A DNA stretch of 35,284 bases. Source: Acidobacteriota bacterium (lineage in GTDB: Bacteria > Acidobacteriota > Vicinamibacteria > Vicinamibacterales > UBA2999). Of the stretch, positions 6,447 to 14,269 are shown one piece after another (position 1 is the first letter of the stretch; each line of letters begins with the position of its first letter). The notes under the pieces are model-generated. The model had not been told where the DNA came from. It ran no database searches and saw only the letters and a program-made list of their open reading frames with translations. The position numbers and the translations under genes are program-made. The DNA lies in contig JAIVJN010000031.1 of the NCBI GenBank assembly GCA_020200025.1, positions 1 through 35,284 of the forward strand. Reading direction: 5' to 3'.

Positions 6447-7507
6447 GCCGGCCCGAGCTGGCGCTGGCGCTTGTCGGGTTTGGACACGTCGGGCAGCGCT
6501 TCTTACGGCTGCTCGACGAGGTGGCCGATCGCCTCGACTTCGACTGGCGCCTGGTGGCCATCGCGACCAGACGTCATGGATGTGCCGTGGATGCCGACGG
6601 CATCGACGCCGACCGCGCACTGGCGACGATGGAGGGGCGTCTCTCGCTCGAGCGCCTCGATCACGAGCCCCAACAGCGCAGCGGCATCGACGTCGTTCGG
6701 CGCGTCACGGACGTTCTCGCCGACGAAGCCAGCGAGGGCCGGCTCGTGACGATCGAAACAACCCTGCTCGACATCGAGCAGGGTGAGCCAGCCACGGCGC
6801 ACGTGCGCGCCTCGCTCGAAGGGCTCGCTCACGTCGTCACCGCCAACAAGGGACCCGTGGCGTTCGGGTATCGCGATCTCGAATCACTGGCGGAGTCGGT
6901 CGATCGCTTCTTTCTGTTCGAAGGCGCAGTCATGGACGGCGTGCCAGTCTTCAATCTCGTCCGCGAGACCATGCCAGGCGTCGTCGTCGAGGCGTTCCGC
7001 GGAGTGATCAACAGCACCTGCAACTACGTGCTCGCGGAGCTCGAACGTGGCACGCCCTTCGACGATGCGATTGCGGCGATGCAGGCGCAGGGCATCGCGG
7101 AAGCCGACCCCTCGCACGATGTCGATGGATGGGACGCGGCCGCAAAGACGGCAGCGCTCGCCAACGTCCTTCTCGATGCCGTCATCACGCCGCACCAAGT
7201 CGAACGAACGGGCATTCGGGATGTCACGGCGGCCGACGCGTCCGAAGCGGTCGCCAGTGGGCGCCGTATCCGGCTCGTGGCTTCTGCCGCGCGACACGGT
7301 CGCACGATCGAGGCGCGGGTCGAGCCCGAGCTGCTCGATGGCCGCGATCCACTCGCCAATCTCACCGGCACCGAGAACGCGCTCTACTTGAAGACGGATC
7401 TGCTCGGCGAAATCGGCGTCGTGCAACGTACCGGGTCGGTCGCGCAGACGGCGTATGCGCTGCTCAGCGACGTCATGAGGATCAGCCGGCGATTCCGTGA
7501 GTTGTAG
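6443..7507 (+). CDS. hom: Homoserine dehydrogenase
   Basis: NAD(P)-dependent reduction of aspartate semialdehyde to homoserine, the branch to threonine and methionine. The 354-residue protein has the Rossmann start ALVGFGHVGQRF, the NKGPVA segment, the substrate region GVINSTCNYVL, and the catalytic stretch EADPSHDVDGWDAAAK. It ends without the C-terminal ACT domain that gives threonine feedback in longer forms, so regulation must differ. The start overlaps the aminotransferase stop by four bases; the ORF track's longer upstream start is inside that gene and has no homology. Confidence 0.93.
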   Translation: MSRPELALALVGFGHVGQRFLRLLDEVADRLDFDWRLVAIATRRHGCAVDADGIDADRALATMEGRLSLERLDHEPQQRSGIDVVRRVTDVLADEASEGRLVTIETTLLDIEQGEPATAHVRASLEGLAHVVTANKGPVAFGYRDLESLAESVDRFFLFEGAVMDGVPVFNLVRETMPGVVVEAFRGVINSTCNYVLAELERGTPFDDAIAAMQAQGIAEADPSHDVDGWDAAAKTAALANVLLDAVITPHQVERTGIRDVTAADASEAVASGRRIRLVASAARHGRTIEARVEPELLDGRDPLANLTGTENALYLKTDLLGEIGVVQRTGSVAQTAYALLSDVMRISRRFREL

Positions 7508-7540
7508 GCGACACCGCGCCTCGGTTTTCCTCTTTATTCG

Positions 7541-7546
7541 TACAAT
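7541..7546 (+). promoter_or_regulatory. Probable -10 box giving a leaderless mRNA
   Basis: TACAAT lies six bases before the ATG of the CoA-transferase gene, in a short A/T-richer stretch (TCTTTATTCGTACAAT). There is no ribosome-binding purine run before the ATG, consistent with a transcript starting at or near the start codon. No convincing -35 box is visible. Confidence 0.45.
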
Positions 7547-7552
7547 AGCCGG

Positions 7553-8740
7553 ATGACCGCACCGCTCGAGGGCGTGACGGTGCTCGACCTGACGCGCGTG
7601 CTGTCCGGTCCGTATTGCACCATGGTGTTGGGCGATCTTGGCGCCCGCATCATCAAGCTGGAGCATCCAGCCCGCGGCGACGACACGCGCCACTGGGGAC
7701 CGCCGTTCCTAGCCGATCAGAGCGCCTATTTCCTGAGCATCAATCGCAACAAGGAGAGCCTCACGCTCGACTTCAAGCACGTGGACGCCGGCGAGGTTCT
7801 CGCGCGGCTGCTGCCGCGGGTCGACGTCCTGGTCGAGAACTTCCGTCCGGGGACGCTCGATGGATGCGAGCTCGATGCGGACACGCTGCTCCAGCGGTTT
7901 CCGCGTCTCGTGTACTGCTCGATTTCCGGATACGGCCAGACCGGTCCGCGCTCGCGCGAGCCGGGCTACGATGCGGTGATTCAGGCCGAGGGCGGCTTGA
8001 TGAGCGTGACGGGCGATGCCGACGGTCCGGCGTTCCGCCTCGGTGTGGCCATCTCCGACATCACCGCGGGTCTCTTCGCGGCGCAAGGGGTGCTGGCCGC
8101 CCTTCTGGCCCGCGAGCGTACGGGACGCGGCCAGCTCGTCGACGTCGGCATGCTCGACTCGACCGCTGCCCTTCTCACCTATCAAGCCGCCATCCATTTT
8201 GCGACCGGTCAGCCACCGGCGCGCATGGGCAACCGACATCCGACGATTGCGCCCTACGAGACATTCACGGCAACGGATGGCGAAGTGGTCGTGGCAGTCG
8301 GCAACGATGCCATCTGGCGCCGCTTTTGTGCCGCTGCCGGCTTGGACGGCCTCGCCGAGGATCACCGCTTTGCAACGAACCGTGGACGGTTGACGAATTA
8401 CACCGAGCTCAGGCCGATCCTGGCCGAGCGGCTCGGCACGAGGTCACGCGCCGAATGGCTCACACGCTTCACCGCGGCGGGCGTGCCGTGCGGGTCCGTG
8501 CGGAGCGTCGGCGAGGTCCTCGCGGATCCGCACCTGGCCTCGCGACAGATGATCCACGCGCTGCCGCACCCGACGGCCGGATTCGTGCAGGTGATCGGAT
8601 CGCCGCTCAAGCTCTCGGACACACCCACGAGCGTGCGTACGGCTCCGCCCGTCCTCGGACAGCACACCGAGTCGATCCTGTCGGAGCTCGGGTTCGGGTC
8701 GACGGCGATTGACGGGTTGCGATCAGCTGGAGCGGTCTAG
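7553..8740 (+). CDS. Class III CoA-transferase (CaiB/BaiF family)
   Basis: A 395-residue family III CoA-transferase, which moves CoA between carboxylic acids through an aspartyl-CoA mixed anhydride. The N-terminal signature PLEGVTVLDLTRVLSGPY, the segment VENFRPGTLD, SISGYGQTGP, and the catalytic aspartate in VDVGMLDS are present; length is typical (about 390-410). Substrates vary (oxalate, succinate, carnitine, methylsuccinyl and mesaconyl CoA) and cannot be assigned here. It stands alone between homoserine dehydrogenase and a repeat element. A small hairpin just past the stop (CGGCTGATGAAAAGCCG) may end its transcript. Confidence 0.92.
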   Translation: MTAPLEGVTVLDLTRVLSGPYCTMVLGDLGARIIKLEHPARGDDTRHWGPPFLADQSAYFLSINRNKESLTLDFKHVDAGEVLARLLPRVDVLVENFRPGTLDGCELDADTLLQRFPRLVYCSISGYGQTGPRSREPGYDAVIQAEGGLMSVTGDADGPAFRLGVAISDITAGLFAAQGVLAALLARERTGRGQLVDVGMLDSTAALLTYQAAIHFATGQPPARMGNRHPTIAPYETFTATDGEVVVAVGNDAIWRRFCAAAGLDGLAEDHRFATNRGRLTNYTELRPILAERLGTRSRAEWLTRFTAAGVPCGSVRSVGEVLADPHLASRQMIHALPHPTAGFVQVIGSPLKLSDTPTSVRTAPPVLGQHTESILSELGFGSTAIDGLRSAGAV

Positions 8741-8829
8741 CGGCTGATGAAAAGCCGAGCCTTGAAGTCAAGAGGCACAAGGCCGCCTCTTGCCTGGCCT
8801 ACTCCGGTTGCTGGGTTTTTCACCAACCT

Positions 8830-8987
8830 GGCAGCGAAGCTTCGCCCCGAACCGCCAAGAGATCAGCGGGGCTGCGCTTCGCTGCCATAGTATTGTTTTG
8901 CCCCGCCTCGCGGGGCCTAGACATCTCCTGAGGCCATTCGGGAAATTAGCTTCATTCACAACGCTCCCAGCCTTAGGAGATGTCTAG
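8830..8987. repeat. Three-hairpin intergenic repeat, copy 2 (complete)
   Basis: Three consecutive palindromes. The first pairs GGCAGCGAAGC (8830-8840) with GCTTCGCTGCC (8876-8886), with an inner GCCCCG/CGGGGC stem. The second is GCCCCGC-CTC-GCGGGGC at 8900-8916. The third is a near-perfect 18-bp inverted repeat with CTAGACATCTCCTGAGGC at 8917-8934 and its partner at 8970-8987. It is homologous to the element at 1-122, including loop sequence. The rest of the 281-base gap from 8741 holds only small hairpins. Confidence 0.8.
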
Positions 8988-9022
8988 TGTTGCTGGACCC
9001 GCGTTTCGCAACGAGCTTATCC

Positions 9023-9397
9023 ATGGATACCGGCCTCGTCCGTAAACGTCTTCGCTCTGCCGTCGATGCGGCGCGCAGGGAAGCCACGGCACGCCGCTCT
9101 CGCGCTGACGCGTCCGCAAAAGCTTACGAGCAATTCCTCGTCGACGTGGCTGTGCCGGCATTCCGCGCCATGGCCACTGCGCTTCGCGCCGAAGGACTGC
9201 CGTTCGAGGTGATGACCCCGTCCGATGCCGTACGGTTGGTGCCGGAACGCAATCGTGACGATGGGATCACGCTCGAGCTCGATGCGACGGCCGATCCGCC
9301 GATGCCGCTCGTCTCAGTAACGCGTTCGCGGGGCAGCCGCGTCGTCCAGCGCGAGCGAACCGTGAGAGGGGCCGCCACCCCGTACGCCCCCGGATAG
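9023..9397 (+). pseudogene. Conserved hypothetical protein, C terminus lost
   Basis: The 124-codon reading frame begins MDTGLVRKRLRSAVDAA. It is rich in Arg and Ala helices and followed by a beta-rich part (GITLELDATADPPMPLVSV). I recognise the pattern of a conserved helical hypothetical found in Acidobacteriota-type genomes; no function is known. Reading ends abruptly after RERTV, and the following residues come from DNA that is the antisense of the facing ubiE-type gene. Normal members continue about 30 residues more. The convergent ubiE-type gene is cut at the same point, so one deletion seems to have removed both 3' ends. The ATG at 9023 is preferred over the ORF start at 8987, which is in the repeat. 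Confidence 0.6.
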
Positions 9398-9996
9398 CGA
9401 CGGATCGATTCGGGAATATACCGATAGGTGTCCGGATCGCCGTGCAGCACCCACCCCACCACGCTGCCGACGCGGGCGAGATAGCTCAAATAGAGCCGCC
9501 GCAGACGAGCGTCGTCCGGACGATTGAAATCGAGTGAAAGGAACCGGCCACCAGGTTTGAGGACGCGGGCGATTTCCTCGAGAGCAGGGCCGAGCTCCGG
9601 GACATTTCTCAATCCGTAACCCGTCGTGACGACTTCGAACGACGCGCCACGAAACGGCAGCGCCATCATGTCGCCGGTGAGGAAAGCCGGACTGGGCTGG
9701 CCGCGCGCCTTGGCGACGGCGATCTCCAGCATGCGATGAGTGACGTCGAGCCCGACCGTGGCCGCCCCCTTCGCACGAAGCAGGTAGGTGATGTCGCCTG
9801 TGCCGGCAGCTAGATCCAGCGCCCGTTCGCCGGGATGGATGTCGGCGAGCTGCACGAGCCGCTTTTTCCAATGCCGATCGCGACCGTAGGAGAACAGGAC
9901 CGTGATGAGATCGTAGCGGTCCGCAATGGTAGCGAAGAGCCGTCGAACGTGGATGCGCTTGCTCTCCGGCGTATCGAAGGCGGCTTCGAGGGACAC
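9124..9996 (-). pseudogene. UbiE/MenG-type quinone methyltransferase, C terminus replaced by read-through
   Basis: S-adenosylmethionine-dependent C-methyltransferase for demethylmenaquinone or ubiquinone precursors. Homology runs from the start (SKRIHVRRLFATIADRYDLI) through the SAM site LDLAAGTGDITY and the family motifs YGLRNVP and YIPESIRRYPG. At about 9375-9385 it stops and the frame reads on through the antisense of the facing hypothetical gene to 9124. About 30 C-terminal residues, usually ending near GGLMAIH, are missing. The 290-residue ORF length is thus an artefact of the join. The core SAM fold is intact. It starts seven bases after the cupredoxin gene and probably belongs to the metal/redox operon upstream. 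Confidence 0.78.
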
Positions 9997-10003
9997 GCGA
10001 TGA

Positions 10004-10405
10004 TTATCGCGCCACCACCTCGATGACGCCGCGCATCATCTCGGAGTGCGGCCGGCACTGATATTCGTACGTGCCCGGCGCGGTGGGCGCCTCGAACGTG
10101 ACGGAGCCCTGCTGACCGTTGGAGAGAGATCTCGTCGCCACGTCCCACGAGGGAATGGCGAAGTCGTGCACCATGCCCGGCGTCTCATTGCGCACGACGA
10201 TGCGGACCCGCTCACCGGCGGTGACCCGGACGATCGGGTTCATCTCTGGCTGGCCTTCGAGGACGAACGTCATCCCTCTTGTCACGAGGACGATCTGGCG
10301 CGCCGGCGCCCGTTCCGCAACGAGCGGCAGCACCGCAACGATTCCGATGAAAACCGCCGCGCAAACCGCCGCCGTGCGCCAATGTCGTCGAACTACCTTT
10401 GTCAC
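10004..10405 (-). CDS. Exported cupredoxin (plastocyanin-like)
   Basis: A 133-residue protein with an N-terminal hydrophobic export or anchor segment (AAVCAAVFIGIVAVLPLV) followed by a compact cupredoxin domain. Type 1 copper ligands are visible as His in MVHDFAIP, Cys in YEYQCRPH, the following His, and Met in EMM. It probably carries electrons or copper in the periplasm. It lies between the ZIP transporter (74-base gap) and the UbiE-type gene (7 bases) on the same strand, downstream of a multicopper oxidase, so a redox partnership with that oxidase is likely but inferred. Confidence 0.88.
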   Translation of the reverse strand: MTKVVRRHWRTAAVCAAVFIGIVAVLPLVAERAPARQIVLVTRGMTFVLEGQPEMNPIVRVTAGERVRIVVRNETPGMVHDFAIPSWDVATRSLSNGQQGSVTFEAPTAPGTYEYQCRPHSEMMRGVIEVVAR

Positions 10406-10479
10406 GTCACCCTCATGTCATCCCGCCGATGAGCTCTACGCCCGCAGGGTTCGAGCCCCGCCTGCCGGTGCAGTCCGCT

Positions 10480-11757
10480 TTACCCGACGAACATCCCGGT
10501 CACATACATCACAACCACGCCGACGACGAGACCGGCCAGCACGGGACGTTGCAGCAAGTGCCGGCCCACGCCACCTTCGCCTGCGGTCTGCTTCAAAATC
10601 TGGCGCATCACCTGCCCGATGGCGCCGACACCGAAGCCGAGCATGAGCACGGCCCACACCGGCGAGGTGACGAACCCACCGAGCCACGCGCCGGCGATCG
10701 TCGGTACACCGCCGACCAGGCCCAACTTGAGAAGGTTTGCTACTGGCGCACGGGTGCCTTCTCGCGCCAACGGCGCCACGATCGCCAAGCCCTCGGTCGT
10801 GTTGTGCAGCGTGAAGCCGACGATGAGCAGAGAGCCGAGTGCCATTTCGCCGAGCGCGAACGCCGATCCGATGGCGAGGCCTTCGCCAAAGTTGTGGAGG
10901 CCGATGCCGATGGCGACGAGGAGCGCCAGCACCCAACCGGTGCTGGGCCCAGCGGCGGCCGACGCGGCGTTCGTCTTGTTTCGGCGCTCACCGAGGTAGA
11001 AGCCCACCGCATCGAGCGCCACCCAGGCCGCCATCGCTCCGAATACGAACAACGTCACGCCCTGGTACGACTCGGGGACGGCGGCAGCCGACTCGAGGCC
11101 GTCGAGCGCGCCGTCGACGAAGAGAAAAGCTAACAGCCCAACCGTCAACGCCAGCAGAAAGTCGAGGCCGCGCCGGTCGAGTCTGCCGACCAGCGGATAC
11201 CAGAGGAGGCCAATTGCCACGGGGATCACACCGACATACAGGCCAATCAGTGCAAAGACGCCGAAGAACCGTAATGTCGGCCGCGGCGTTTCGACGGCCA
11301 CACCAATCGCGTGATCGAATGTCGCGCCAGTCGACGTGATCAGCCTGACGAGGTGAGATTCGCCTTGCACCCACGGGTACGGAATCACGAGCCTCGTCCG
11401 ATTCAGGTGCTCGAGGCGTGTGCCCTGTTCCGCTTGAAACGTCCAGAACGCATCGTCGACCATCACTTGCGCGATGGTCACTTCGTCGGGGCCGTCGTTG
11501 AGCACACCCAGGACGATCTGGCCCGGGCTGAGCACAGCCCGCTCGATGGAAAGGCGCTCGACCGGCGGATAGCCGTCGCCGGTGACGAAGCTGGACGGCC
11601 CCCTGCCGATCAAGAGCGCCAGCAGGGCGCCGAGCAATACGAGCGGCCCGAGACCGAGCATCCAGGTGACCACGGCGCGGCGTGGAGGCGTCACCGGGGC
11701 GTCAGCCAGCGTCGAGCGCGGAGCACCGAGCGCCCCCGTGCCGACATTACGTGACAC
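10480..11757 (-). CDS. ZIP-family metal transporter with N-terminal extracytoplasmic domain
   Basis: A 425-residue membrane protein. A first membrane span (about residues 33-50) is followed by about 110 residues with beta-rich character (SIERAVLSPGQIVLGVLNDGPDEVTIAQV), probably outside the membrane, then a ZIP core. The core carries the metal-binding helices IGIGLHNFGEGLAIGSAF and GFTLHNTTEGLAIVAPL with their HN..E..A pattern. ZIP proteins import divalent metals (Zn, Fe, Mn). The GTG at 11757 overlaps the oxidase stop by 11 bases; a later ATG would cut into the first span. The extra domain is unusual for a simple ZIP protein. Confidence 0.85.
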   Translation of the reverse strand: MSRNVGTGALGAPRSTLADAPVTPPRRAVVTWMLGLGPLVLLGALLALLIGRGPSSFVTGDGYPPVERLSIERAVLSPGQIVLGVLNDGPDEVTIAQVMVDDAFWTFQAEQGTRLEHLNRTRLVIPYPWVQGESHLVRLITSTGATFDHAIGVAVETPRPTLRFFGVFALIGLYVGVIPVAIGLLWYPLVGRLDRRGLDFLLALTVGLLAFLFVDGALDGLESAAAVPESYQGVTLFVFGAMAAWVALDAVGFYLGERRNKTNAASAAAGPSTGWVLALLVAIGIGLHNFGEGLAIGSAFALGEMALGSLLIVGFTLHNTTEGLAIVAPLAREGTRAPVANLLKLGLVGGVPTIAGAWLGGFVTSPVWAVLMLGFGVGAIGQVMRQILKQTAGEGGVGRHLLQRPVLAGLVVGVVVMYVTGMFVG

Positions 11758-12793
11758 TGCCAGCCTCCGCACGGAACAGTCCCATCCATCCGAGCTCGGC
11801 GAACTCGCTCTGATGGGCGTGGAACATGAAGTCACCGGGATACCGGAACGTGGTCTCGAGGATGGCGCGCTCGCCTTGCGCGAGCACGATTGTGTCGATG
11901 TGCTCGACGTGCGCCGAGGGCGTGCCGGTCCGCGCGGCATCGAAGAACATGCCGTGCAGATGGAAGCTGTTGAGCAGATCGAACTCGGTGAGGTTCACGA
12001 GATAGATGCGCACCGGCCGACCGACGGTGACGCGCACCGGATCGGTCATGTAGGCGTTGGCGATCGAATTGACCGCGTAGACTTCGTTTTCGTTATCGAA
12101 GTTGGTGTCGAACGCGTTCATCACCATGACCATTTCGTCGGCCGGCGCCCGACCGCCTCGGGGATCGACGATGAACGCGCCGTAGAGGCCCTTGTGAATG
12201 TGACGCTTCAGCGGCACGGCGTGGCAGTGATACAAGTGCAGCCCGACCGGCTCGGCATCGAACTCGTACAGGAACGAGCCACCAGGCATGACCTGATGCT
12301 CGGGCAACGATCCGTCCATTTCCGGCGGGTGCCACCCGTGGAAGTGAATGGTGTGCGGGTGCGATCCCTGGTTGACGAACCGAATGCGCAGGTGATCGCC
12401 CTCCGTCGCGCGGATGGTCGGTCCCGGTACCTCGCCGTTGTACGTCCAGGCGGGGAAGAACAATCCGGGAGCGATCTCGATCTCGCGGTCGACGGCGAAG
12501 ATGTCGTACTCGCGCAGCATCGACCCATCGGGGCGCGAGGTTTCTCGGTAGACCTTCTCGCGCTCGGCGTCCGGTAGATGATTGAAGTTGAAACCGCGCA
12601 GGAACCTGACGGCATCGAAGGCCGACTTTTCGACACGCCCGACCGTCCCCATGGCATGGGCGTGAACCGCATGCTCGGCGCTCGTCGGGGACGCCTGACC
12701 GGAGAGGGCCCGAGTCCAGGCTGCCGCTCCTGTGAGAACGGCGCCGAAACCCGCCACCTGCATCCAGTCCCGGCGGGAGAGTGTCCACTTCAT
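11747..12793 (-). CDS. Exported two-domain multicopper oxidase
   Basis: A 348-residue copper oxidase with a twin-arginine-type leader (LSRRDWMQVAGFGAVLTGAAA). Copper motifs are HFHGWHPPE, HLYHCHAVPLKRHIHKGLYG (type 1 Cys-His in domain 1), SFHLHGMF and a final HAHQSEFAELGWMGLF. This order fits small two-domain oxidases or nitrite-reductase-like forms rather than three-domain laccases. Substrate could be a metal ion such as Fe(II) or Mn(II), given the linked ZIP transporter and DtxR-type regulator, but this is inference. First gene of the minus-strand operon with ZIP, cupredoxin and UbiE-type genes. Confidence 0.9.
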   Translation of the reverse strand: MKWTLSRRDWMQVAGFGAVLTGAAAWTRALSGQASPTSAEHAVHAHAMGTVGRVEKSAFDAVRFLRGFNFNHLPDAEREKVYRETSRPDGSMLREYDIFAVDREIEIAPGLFFPAWTYNGEVPGPTIRATEGDHLRIRFVNQGSHPHTIHFHGWHPPEMDGSLPEHQVMPGGSFLYEFDAEPVGLHLYHCHAVPLKRHIHKGLYGAFIVDPRGGRAPADEMVMVMNAFDTNFDNENEVYAVNSIANAYMTDPVRVTVGRPVRIYLVNLTEFDLLNSFHLHGMFFDAARTGTPSAHVEHIDTIVLAQGERAILETTFRYPGDFMFHAHQSEFAELGWMGLFRAEAGSVT

Positions 12794-12795
12794 AG

Positions 12796-12811
12796 TTTTG
12801 ACCGTTCAAAA
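12796..12811. promoter_or_regulatory. Operator-like palindrome next to the oxidase start
   Basis: A perfect inverted repeat TTTTGA-CCGT-TCAAAA lies two bases upstream of the multicopper oxidase start codon, in the 85-base gap shared with the divergent DtxR/MntR-type gene. It has TTGA/TCAA half sites like the second palindrome at 12834-12854. It is likely a regulator binding site; the binding protein is inferred. Confidence 0.5.
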
Positions 12812-12833
12812 TTAAACCACGCCAGTGGCCGAA

Positions 12834-12854
12834 ACGTCAAGCGCGGTTTGACGT
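12834..12854. promoter_or_regulatory. Second operator-like palindrome in the oxidase/regulator gap
   Basis: ACGTCAA and TTGACGT form a perfect 7-bp inverted repeat with a 7-base spacer, 24 bases before the regulator ATG. Together with 12796-12811 it gives a pair of TTGA-type sites suited to autoregulation by the metal-responsive regulator. The plus-strand TTGACG could also act as a -35 box. Confidence 0.45.
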
Positions 12855-12878: not shown

Positions 12879-13553
12879 ATGTTTCCTTCGAGTACCGTCG
12901 AAAACTACCTCAAAGCCATCTACCTCGGTGGTGAGGGTCAACTCGAAGTTCAGCGTTTGATGCCCATGGGTCAGTTGTCGGCGGCCCTCGGCGTCGCGCC
13001 CGGCACCGCCACCACGATGGTGAAGGCGCTGGCCGAGTCGGGGCTCGTCGAGTACGAGCCGTACAACGGCGTGCGGCTGTCGGCCGCCGGCGAGAAGCTG
13101 GCGGCTCTCGTGTTGCGCCGGCACCGTTTGGTCGAGCTCTTCCTTGTCCGAGTCATGGGAATGCCCTGGGACGAGGTGCACGACGAGGCAGAGCAGCTCG
13201 AGCACGCGGTGTCCGATCGGCTCATCGAACGGATCGATCAGATGCTGGGCCATCCCGAGGTCGATCCGCACGGGGACCCCATCCCCGACCCCGACGGGCA
13301 GTTGCGGCGCCGGGAGTTCGACACGCTGCTCACGTGTCCACTCAACACGCCCGTCCGTGTCACTCGAGTGACCGATCAAGATGCCGCGTTTTTGCGCTTC
13401 CTCGAGAGCCACCATCTGAAGCCAGGTGAGACGACCGAGGTCGAAGCCCGCGATCAGGTGGCCGACAGCGTGCGGCTGCGTGGACAGGACGACCAGCGCA
13501 TCACGATTGGCATGCGCGCCGCCTCGAAGTTGCTCGTGGAAACGGGAATGTAG
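12879..13553 (+). CDS. DtxR/MntR-family metal-dependent regulator
   Basis: A 224-residue three-part regulator. Residues about 1-65 are a winged helix (SSTVENYLKAIYLGG; APGTATTMVKALAESGLVEY). Residues about 70-140 are the dimer and metal-binding domain with MGMPWDEVHDEAEQLEH, containing the typical E..C/H..E ligand pattern region. The last 70 residues are an SH3/FeoA-like domain (LNTPVRVTRVTD). Proteins of this family sense Fe(II) or Mn(II) and repress uptake genes. The ATG at 12879 follows AAGGGG. It is divergent from the oxidase-ZIP-cupredoxin operon, which it probably controls through the two palindromes in the gap. Confidence 0.9.
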   Translation: MFPSSTVENYLKAIYLGGEGQLEVQRLMPMGQLSAALGVAPGTATTMVKALAESGLVEYEPYNGVRLSAAGEKLAALVLRRHRLVELFLVRVMGMPWDEVHDEAEQLEHAVSDRLIERIDQMLGHPEVDPHGDPIPDPDGQLRRREFDTLLTCPLNTPVRVTRVTDQDAAFLRFLESHHLKPGETTEVEARDQVADSVRLRGQDDQRITIGMRAASKLLVETGM

Positions 13554-13597: not shown

Positions 13598-14269
13598 CTA
13601 CCTACGGCTACCTCGCGCGAATCGATCGACGACCTCGACGAGGTCGGAGGGCCGATCGACCACGTAGCTCGTCGCAGGTGGATGCTCACGAAAGCGCGCC
13701 GCGCCGAAGCCGTAACGCGCCCAGCCGAACGCAAATCCCGCGGCCGCGGCGGTTTCAGCATCGAAAGGTGTGTCGCCCACGAGCATCGTGGGCAGGTTTC
13801 CAACTCGAGCGGCCAATGCTCTGAGCCCGGCGGGGTTGGGTTTGCGCGGCCACGGACCATCGCCGCCAATCACCTCGTCGAAGAGCTCCGCCAGCGCGAG
13901 ACCGTCCAGAATACGGCGCGAGGGCTCGACCGGCTTGTTGGTGAGCACGGCCAGCCTGGCGCGTCTCGACACGCGTGTCAGCGCATCGCGCATGCCGGGA
14001 TAGGGTCGAGTGTGGTTGAGGAGCCGATTGTCGTAGATTGCCAGGAAACGTTCGAGCGCCCCGGGTGTCTGGGGATCGACTCCAGCCGCCGACAGCGCAC
14101 GCTGTACGAGGAGCGACGCGCCTTCCCCCACCATCGCGCCGACCTCGTCCACCGCAAGCGGCCGCCCGCCGAGGGCAACGACGAGCTCGCTTGCCGACTC
14201 GGCCAGATCCTGTACCGATTCGACCAGCGTGCCGTCGAGATCGAAAACGATGAGCAGCCGGCGCGTCAC
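13598..14269 (-). CDS. HAD-family phosphatase, phosphoglycolate phosphatase-like
   Basis: A 223-residue HAD hydrolase with motif I FDLDGTLVES, motif II LAVLTNKP, the lysine in PRKPNPAGL, and motif IV LVGDTPFDAETAAAAG. The cap and overall length fit phosphoglycolate phosphatases (Gph), which clear the 2-phosphoglycolate released in DNA repair, but the exact substrate is not certain. The GTG start overlaps the queD stop by four bases (GTGA), indicating coupling. Confidence 0.85.
   Translation of the reverse strand: MTRRLLIVFDLDGTLVESVQDLAESASELVVALGGRPLAVDEVGAMVGEGASLLVQRALSAAGVDPQTPGALERFLAIYDNRLLNHTRPYPGMRDALTRVSRRARLAVLTNKPVEPSRRILDGLALAELFDEVIGGDGPWPRKPNPAGLRALAARVGNLPTMLVGDTPFDAETAAAAGFAFGWARYGFGAARFREHPPATSYVVDRPSDLVEVVDRFARGSRR

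Follow-up and report, generated by a model that had tools for sequence, protein, structure and literature searches.

A multicopper oxidase, ZIP transporter and cupredoxin next to a DtxR/MntR-type regulator in an Acidobacteriota genome: a probable route for iron or manganese uptake

Genes of the locus

The window (the whole stretch of 35,284 nucleotides analysed here, contig JAIVJN010000031.1 of an Acidobacteriota bacterium of the order Vicinamibacterales) carries a multicopper oxidase (MCO), a ZIP transporter and a cupredoxin on one strand, facing a DtxR/MntR-family regulator across an intergenic region with two palindromes (Table 1). These identities, including the outer beta-domain of the ZIP protein, were proposed in a sequence-only reading and are borne out by Pfam profiles, fold and motifs; as a whole, that observation is partly confirmed and mostly holds. 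Its description of the genes as packed with overlaps is right for MCO and ZIP (GTG at 11757, MCO stop at 11747–11749) and wrong further on, since gaps of 74 bp and 7 bp separate ZIP from cupredoxin and cupredoxin from UbiE. The name of the HAD-type gene was read from the sequence, with no profile search behind it.

Table 1. Features of the locus, in coordinates of the window.
Feature	Position	Strand	Remarks
Two-domain multicopper oxidase (MCO), 348 aa	11747..12793	−	Tat-exported
ZIP transporter carrying a TM anchor and a beta-sandwich at its N-terminus	10480..11757	−	Probable GTG start 11757
Exported type-1 cupredoxin, 133 aa	10004..10405	−	
DtxR/MntR-family regulator, 224 aa, DR2539-like	12879..13553	+	
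Operator TTTTGACCGTTCAAAA, consensus ATTTTGA-N4-TCAAAAT	12796..12811	.	Predicted; over −10 box of MCO promoter
−35 element TTGACG of MCO promoter	12835..12840	−	Left arm of second palindrome
Second palindrome ACGTCAAGCGCGGTTTGACGT (ACGTCAA...TTGACGT)	12834..12854	.	Present; unconserved in relatives
UbiE-type methyltransferase, C-terminus lost	9124..9996	−	Syntenic neighbour outside cassette
HAD-type phosphatase-like gene	13598..14269	−	Opposite edge of conserved syntenic frame

The MCO matches Cu-oxidase_3 (2.8e-25) and Cu-oxidase_2 (1.8e-22), begins with a twin-arginine leader (SRRDWM) and possesses all copper ligands: the T1 site in domain 1 (H147, C190, H198, axial L203) and the trinuclear HxH motifs H150/H152, H189/H191, H278/H280 and H325/H327. 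With four HxH motifs and the T1 Cys and His confined to domain 1 (the domain-2 motif FHAHQSEF contains no Cys), it fits type C of MCOs, which have two domains and T1 in the first. Copper nitrite reductase NirK was rejected as an identity: the TIGR02376 score is 97.5 bits against the 296.3 needed, and HCH and HAH trinuclear motifs are present. Across the host order the T1 axial residue is Leu; other phyla have Leu in 48/56 sequences and Met in 8/56. An axial Leu is typical of high-potential laccases, suggesting that the enzyme is probably of high potential. Two acidic residues beside the HAH motif, E330 and E333, show no variation (55/55) and are candidates for a metal site. The nearest solved homologues, 7rab and 3gdc (E 5e-104 and 2e-96), are both labelled just "multicopper oxidase", and a literature search for a paper pairing 7rab with a multicopper oxidase found none.

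The transporter scores 26.7 bits against Pfam PF02535, under the gathering cut-off of 35.1, and its best NCBIfam match, the zinc transporter ZupT (1.9e-10), is also under cut-off. Because of the low Pfam score, we base its assignment on fold and motifs. The predicted model has eight TM helices following the beta-domain and the fold of BbZIP (Foldseek best 5tsa/7z6m, E 1.2e-7, probability 1.0). Metal-site motifs are HNFGEG (H289/E293) in TM4 and HNTTEG (H319/E323) in TM5, and H289/N290/E293 and H319/N320/E323 are invariant (27/27 and 60/60). The protein is a divergent branch of ZIP (SLC39) transporters. Its N-terminal extension comprises one TM helix (27–59) and a seven-stranded sandwich (70–153), predicted with a pLDDT of about 93. 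A copper site in this domain was considered and rejected: the nearest folds are FlaG/FlaF beta-sandwiches, PCuAC and CopC are weak Foldseek matches, and a conserved Cys/Met cluster is absent. One His of the domain is kept within the host order, not across all phyla.

The cupredoxin matches Copper-bind (1.8e-7) and has the full set of type-1 copper ligands (H80, C117, H120, M123/M124). The UbiE-type methyltransferase downstream (Pfam match 3.5e-41) is chimeric in the window, its last ~30 residues being replaced as it reads into a truncated convergent gene.

Regulator and operator

The regulator contains all three domains by Pfam (Fe_dep_repress, Fe_dep_repr_C and FeoA), with key residues K12, H101 and E105/E108/H109 and a FeoA/SH3-like C-domain. 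Deinococcus radiodurans DR2539, which represses the Nramp gene mntH on Mn(II) and Fe(II) at an inverted repeat, has Lys in place of Glu11, a key His98 and SH3 features (PMC3327659). The window protein belongs to the same subclass: Lys replaces MntR Glu11, His98 is kept, Glu stands for DtxR Cys102, and the SH3/FeoA domain is present. The systems differ in their target, Nramp there and MCO-ZIP-cupredoxin here, in the TTTTGA half-site of the host order and at position 9, which is Asn in the host order and Asp in MntRs. A Bacillus-type MntR, which needs Asp8 and Glu11, was rejected, the window regulator having Asn9 and Lys12. The nearest structures are 8pvt/8pw0 and 5zr4/5zr6, and the structural neighbours are Mn regulators.

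Two TTGA-type palindromes had been proposed between the divergent genes. The first, TTTTGACCGTTCAAAA, occurs exactly in 23/26 orthologous intergenic regions (the window's own counted) and is the sole exact match in its own genome; a reversed control pattern gave 0. A −35 TTGAC lies 26–29 nt ahead of this operator in 22/26 of the regions. The second palindrome did not stand as an operator: it is found in the window only, and the −35 box of the MCO promoter, read on the minus strand, makes up its left arm. In other phyla the sequence ahead of MCO or DtxR-MCO contains a palindrome of related form, TTTAG-N6-CTAAA, exactly in 23/55 cases (control 0.04%) and with at most one mismatch in 38/55 (control 1.7%). 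Further operator sites precede TonB-receptor-like and porin-like outer-membrane genes.

Unexpectedly, 12/25 relatives have DtxR joined in frame with a signal peptide and an outer-membrane barrel; this fusion is absent from the window's genome.

Conservation and exchange of the cassette

A survey of co-occurrence, suggested by the sequence-only reading, shows that the gene set is conserved. Among the 80 best-matching loci with a beta-domain ZIP, 79 have an MCO directly upstream on the same strand, and in the remaining one a contig end cuts off the neighbour. Records with the pair are titled as at least 12 phyla, a count taken from those titles, and include cultured Paenibacillus, Bacillus and Cohnella. 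In the host order, MCO-ZIP-cupredoxin stands opposite a divergent DtxR gene wherever contigs reach, except for two genomes with DtxR elsewhere. Such near-obligate pairing in very different cell types suggests specific coupling.

The cassette occupies one position in a syntenic frame, HAD-DtxR-operator-[X]-UbiE, in which relatives have MCO-ZIP-cupredoxin, FeoB or Nramp as X. The FeoB version has a second DtxR/FeoA gene alongside, and one genome has MCO-ZIP-cupredoxin-Nramp at the site. Among 81 DtxR orthologues, MCO is the neighbour of 26, FeoB of 20 and Nramp of 9, with one orthologue counted under both MCO and Nramp; for 27, none of the three is close by, which in some cases is explained by contig ends. 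Linkage changed among MCO, FeoB and Nramp at least 10 times on the DtxR tree. Irrespective of linkage, the regulator ligands are the same (K12, H101 and E105 do not vary among host-order copies linked to MCO, FeoB or Nramp). All three alternatives are thus found at the same site, with the same regulator and operator. FeoB is rarer in genomes with MCO (2/12 vs 25/31 in family f1, Fisher p 0.0002); this trend loses significance once the tree is considered, so we rejected it as proof and use it as a hint only. For Nramp, a similar anticorrelation with MCO was looked for in the genomes and was not seen.

The exchange bears on the identity of the metal. A plain importer of zinc, similar to ZupT and unconnected with the oxidase beside it, would agree with the best NCBIfam match. 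However, ZupT itself is broad-range, and Zn-sensing regulators are of Zur/SmtB types; a DtxR regulator of the class that senses Mn/Fe, together with replacement by FeoB or Nramp, makes this reading very improbable. Copper acquisition or homeostasis, in which MCO would turn Cu(I) to Cu(II) for import by ZIP, as for MCO1 of Nitrososphaera viennensis, draws on the fact that oxidase and cupredoxin are both copper proteins. It also has a published model in that archaeon, where the authors propose metal oxidation and uptake by the adjacent MCO1 and zinc/iron permease (NVIE_000600/NVIE_000590), weakly induced under Cu limitation (log2 FC 0.81 and 1.33; PMC7785015). We nevertheless consider it unlikely, given a regulator of the Mn/Fe-sensing class, unlike CueR, CsoR or CopY, and FeoB or Nramp at the same site and operator in relatives.

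UbiE follows MCO-ZIP-cupredoxin, Nramp, FeoB or an empty site alike. It adjoins MCO units in 13/29 loci and is missing beside those of other families. The gene set had also been read as a possible respiratory branch linked to copper, with a quinone methyltransferase at its end, and UbiE does lie 7 bp downstream of the cupredoxin in the window. That suggestion is hardly credible, with UbiE indifferent to the cassette and truncated here, and no membrane oxidase subunit within the unit. As UbiE follows every cassette type, we regard it as a neighbour outside any such branch and reject it as a functional partner.

Proposed function and known systems

The MCO-ZIP pair is probably a little-known route for iron or manganese uptake, since the two genes almost always occur together and lie here, under an Fe/Mn-sensing switch, where relatives have a standard importer. 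Judging from sequence, we think it likely that the unit is an Mn/Fe-repressed, oxidase-assisted cassette for uptake of Fe(II) and/or Mn(II) in metal starvation. With enough cytoplasmic Mn(II) or Fe(II), a DR2539-type repressor on ATTTTGA-N4-TCAAAAT would cover the −10 box and switch MCO-ZIP-cupredoxin off, as operator position and homology suggest. When metal is scarce, ZIP would bring in the divalent ion, aided by an O2-consuming oxidation that MCO may perform at the outer face. The cupredoxin would be the electron partner of MCO, and the membrane-anchored beta-domain its probable docking surface. Relatives have FeoB or Nramp in its place, at a single site behind a single operator, and this exchange suggests that the cassette fills the same role.

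By analogy with Fet3-Ftr1, the substrate of MCO may be the metal itself, which we consider possible rather than probable; alternatives are a metal-holding ligand or Cu(I). ZIPs carry divalent ions, which makes oxidation of Fe(II) or Mn(II) ahead of import chemically awkward. We give a little less than an even chance to an accessory MCO within a correctly assigned uptake system, acting on catechols, humics or siderophores, or clearing Cu(I) that would poison ZIP, with the transported metal not oxidized. The T1 axial residues agree with this, as does the laccase-like character of many two-domain MCOs. Closer coupling is suggested by the almost constant partnership with a single transporter across very different cell types and by a putative metal site at E330/E333. 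The earlier interpretation, in which a DtxR/MntR regulator controls linked oxidation and uptake of metal, is partly supported: uptake accords with pairing, conserved operator and FeoB/Nramp exchange, and oxidation of the transported metal is still inferred.

The closest described case is the archaeal MCO1-permease pair, the only one found in a literature search for a bacterial MCO-ZIP system. It shares a two-domain MCO, an axial Leu and an adjoining zinc/iron permease; however, the available part of its description discusses it for copper and mentions no DtxR operator, cupredoxin partner or FeoB/Nramp exchange. Compared through the published description, the two pairs are candidate homologues. 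Ferroxidase-permease iron uptake is exemplified by Fet3-Ftr1 of yeast and Mco4 of the fly (PMC12218971). Fet3-Ftr1 likewise pairs a starvation-type MCO with a permease, but the permease here folds as ZIP rather than Ftr1, and the MCO is two-domain and bacterial. The bacterial iron systems EfeUOB and FtrABCD also have exported redox or cupredoxin partners serving an inner-membrane metal permease. There, an Ftr1-like permease works with EfeO/EfeB or FtrA/B/D, in contrast to MCO and ZIP here.

We speculate, while considering it rather doubtful, that MCO and beta-domain ZIP form a general, undescribed bacterial Fe/Mn importer, a counterpart of Fet3-Ftr1 built on ZIP and replacing FeoB or Nramp. 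An oxidase docked on the outer domain of ZIP would oxidize the metal or its ligand, and some two-membrane bacteria would add an outer-membrane barrel, sometimes in one polypeptide with the repressor. If true, a ZIP scaffold gave rise to metal import coupled to an oxidase, and a pair common to at least 12 titled phyla would be reassigned from "laccase" and "zinc transporter" to iron/manganese acquisition. A large group of two-domain MCOs with no assigned function, possibly including the archaeal MCO1 group, would gain a testable role. Cultured carriers (Paenibacillus, Bacillus, Cohnella and Croceifilum) make the system amenable to experiment.

The oxidase–transporter cassette and its conservation

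The oxidase, ZIP transporter and cupredoxin genes face a divergent DtxR/MntR gene, the arrangement recognized in the sequence-only reading (table). The multicopper oxidase (MCO) is of the two-domain type with its T1 site in domain 1, and its nearest structures are 7rab and 3gdc. It bears a twin-arginine leader, T1 ligands H147, C190 and H198 with axial L203, and four HxH motifs. These ligands and motifs are conserved in 28/28 MCOs of the order Vicinamibacterales, one ambiguous residue at H278 excepted; nearly all of 56 homologues outside the phylum retain the set, the axial residue being Leu in 48 and Met in 8. Identity as a nitrite reductase was ruled out. A second multicopper oxidase of the same genome (L062:7519-9192 on contig G000:C427, a 620-codon open frame) shows weak similarity (32–39%). 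Cupredoxin ligands H80, C117, H120 and M124 are conserved.

The suspected extra beta-domain of the ZIP transporter appears in its AlphaFold2 model, where one membrane helix is followed by a confident seven-stranded beta-sandwich, similar to FlaG/FlaF soluble domains, and then by eight more membrane helices. The transmembrane part structurally matches BbZIP, and H289/E293 and H319/E323 show no variation in 27 members from the order and 60 homologues elsewhere.

The source assembly is metagenome-type (82% complete, 5% contaminated), and titles of the contigs matched in the order are mostly Acidobacteria or Vicinamibacterales. Excluding the genome itself, the oxidase was found in 29 of 99 genomes of the order (57–76% identity), and the three-gene cassette is unbroken at those loci as far as contigs extend. 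A divergent DtxR gene is present at 25; the others comprise two contig ends and genomes G046 and G075, which carry DtxR elsewhere. A search with the ZIP alignment across genomes yielded at least 577 confirmed relatives. Among the best 80 of these, the co-occurrence proposed for survey is borne out: MCO lies immediately upstream on the same strand in 79, and the remaining locus is truncated by a contig end. A DtxR-type gene is nearby in 46 of these best 80. Judged by title, the set spans at least 12 phyla, although some MAGs may be mistitled; Paenibacillus, Bacillus, Cohnella and Croceifilum are cultured representatives. Three Gemmatimonadota loci in this set have a separate outer-membrane barrel gene directly 3′ of ZIP (L090:4845-5579, L117:6749-7498, L130:7155-7913), a relative of the DtxR-fused barrel found in the order (see below).

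Coordinates of the cassette, its surroundings and related loci
Feature	Position or loci	Strand	Remark
Convergent gene	8987-9397		3′ end lost
UbiE methyltransferase	9124-9996	minus	
Cupredoxin	10004-10405	minus	
ZIP transporter	10480-11757	minus	
Two-domain multicopper oxidase	11747-12793	minus	
First palindrome (operator)	12796-12811		ATTTTGA-N4-TCAAAAT
Second palindrome	12834-12854		
DtxR/MntR regulator	12879-13553	plus	divergent from oxidase
DtxR–barrel fusion loci	L034, L035, L036, L039, L040, L045, L046, L049, L051, L053, L056, L059		four families
Operator copies before outer-membrane genes	L181:7167-7182, L186:1991, L178:1838, L187:2110, L176:1797, L179:2034, L180:2110		

Operator and regulator

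Of two palindromes proposed between the divergent genes, the first is conserved and the second occurs in the window only. TTTTGA-N4-TCAAAA is exact in 23/26 orthologous intergenic regions, with 1–3 mismatches in the other 3. Since TTGAC stands 26–29 nt before it in 22/26 regions, the palindrome overlaps the −10 box, a position that would suit a repressor site. The genome holds one exact copy (reversed control pattern, 0). In other phyla, TTTAG-N6-CTAAA precedes MCO or DtxR–MCO in 38/55 loci when one mismatch is allowed (control 1.7%), and the match is exact in 23/55 (shuffled control 0.04%). Further copies of the candidate operator stand before genes for TonB-receptor-like proteins, for an O/P-type porin and for additional outer-membrane proteins (TraF_2-like), which suggests that outer-membrane genes belong to the regulon.

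The regulator's ligand positions are N9, K12, H82, E86, H101, E105, E108 and H109; these residues are identical in the order's MCO-, FeoB- and Nramp-linked regulators, save one Asp at position 9, where other phyla have Asp, as in MntR. Its nearest structures are Mn regulators. DR2539 of Deinococcus radiodurans, an mntH repressor responding to Mn(II) and Fe(II), is marked by Lys replacing Glu11 and a functional His98 (PMC3327659); this Lys is shared by the window regulator (K12).

In 12/25 relatives the DtxR reading frame stays open past the regulator and, with no conserved start codon in between, encodes first a stretch resembling a signal peptide, in most cases with AxA-Q at its end, and then a ~240-residue beta-barrel that has Phe near the C-terminus; the window DtxR ends before the fusion point. 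In the model of one such fusion (mean pLDDT 70), the regulator part folds as DtxR and the barrel part matches FapF. It would be very unusual, if true, for one polypeptide to contain both a repressor acting in the cytoplasm and a barrel that is exported.

Exchange of transporters at one site

An operator search covering relatives with and without the oxidase revealed that, where the oxidase is missing, exact operators adjoin FeoB or Nramp. These sites share a common layout, in which a HAD gene is followed by a DtxR orthologue (69–82% identical in most cases), the operator, a transporter and UbiE. The transporter slot holds Nramp (e.g., L175, L188, L211), FeoB accompanied by another DtxR/FeoA-type gene (L177, L181, L189, L190) or MCO-ZIP-cupredoxin; it is empty, with UbiE opposite DtxR, at L192, L193, L197 and L201. 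At L040 the cassette is followed by Nramp (7255-8589, between cupredoxin and UbiE), placing both transporters behind one operator. Neighbours of 81 DtxR orthologues were MCO (26), FeoB (20) and Nramp (9; one counted for both MCO and Nramp), and 27 adjoin none of these, in part from contig ends. The DtxR tree implies at least 10 changes among the three types, with low support in places. FeoB is rarer in oxidase-carrying genomes, a difference not significant with tree-aware pairs. In genome G011, a DtxR orthologue with an in-frame TAG (L219:3069-3731) adjoins neither transporter nor operator; G026, of the same genus, has MCO-ZIP-cupredoxin at that site.

Possible mechanism and the UbiE end

With Fet3-Ftr1 as a working analogy, Mn/Fe would repress the cassette through the regulator, ZIP would import Fe(II)/Mn(II), the oxidase would dock on the ZIP beta-domain and the cupredoxin would serve as electron partner. 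Because ZIPs carry divalent ions, oxidation of a ligand or of Cu(I) by MCO is an equally likely alternative to this Fet3-Ftr1-type scheme. The sole described analogue that we found, likened by description rather than sequence, is in Nitrososphaera viennensis, where MCO1 lies beside a zinc/iron permease and is discussed for copper (PMC7785015). Our literature search, which covered few subscription papers, found no account of a bacterial MCO-ZIP system; given that coverage, its novelty is not proven.

The window UbiE is missing its final ~30 residues and reads head-to-head into the convergent gene; both are whole in relatives, and the junction near 9375 represents either a deletion or a misassembly. 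The interval that separates the truncated gene from a CaiB-like gene contains, at 8829-8887 and 8917-8987, a hairpin of 21 nt and an inverted repeat of 18 nt (CTAGACATCTCCTGAGGC / GCCTTAGGAGATGTCTAG); together they may represent a small mobile element close to the deletion.
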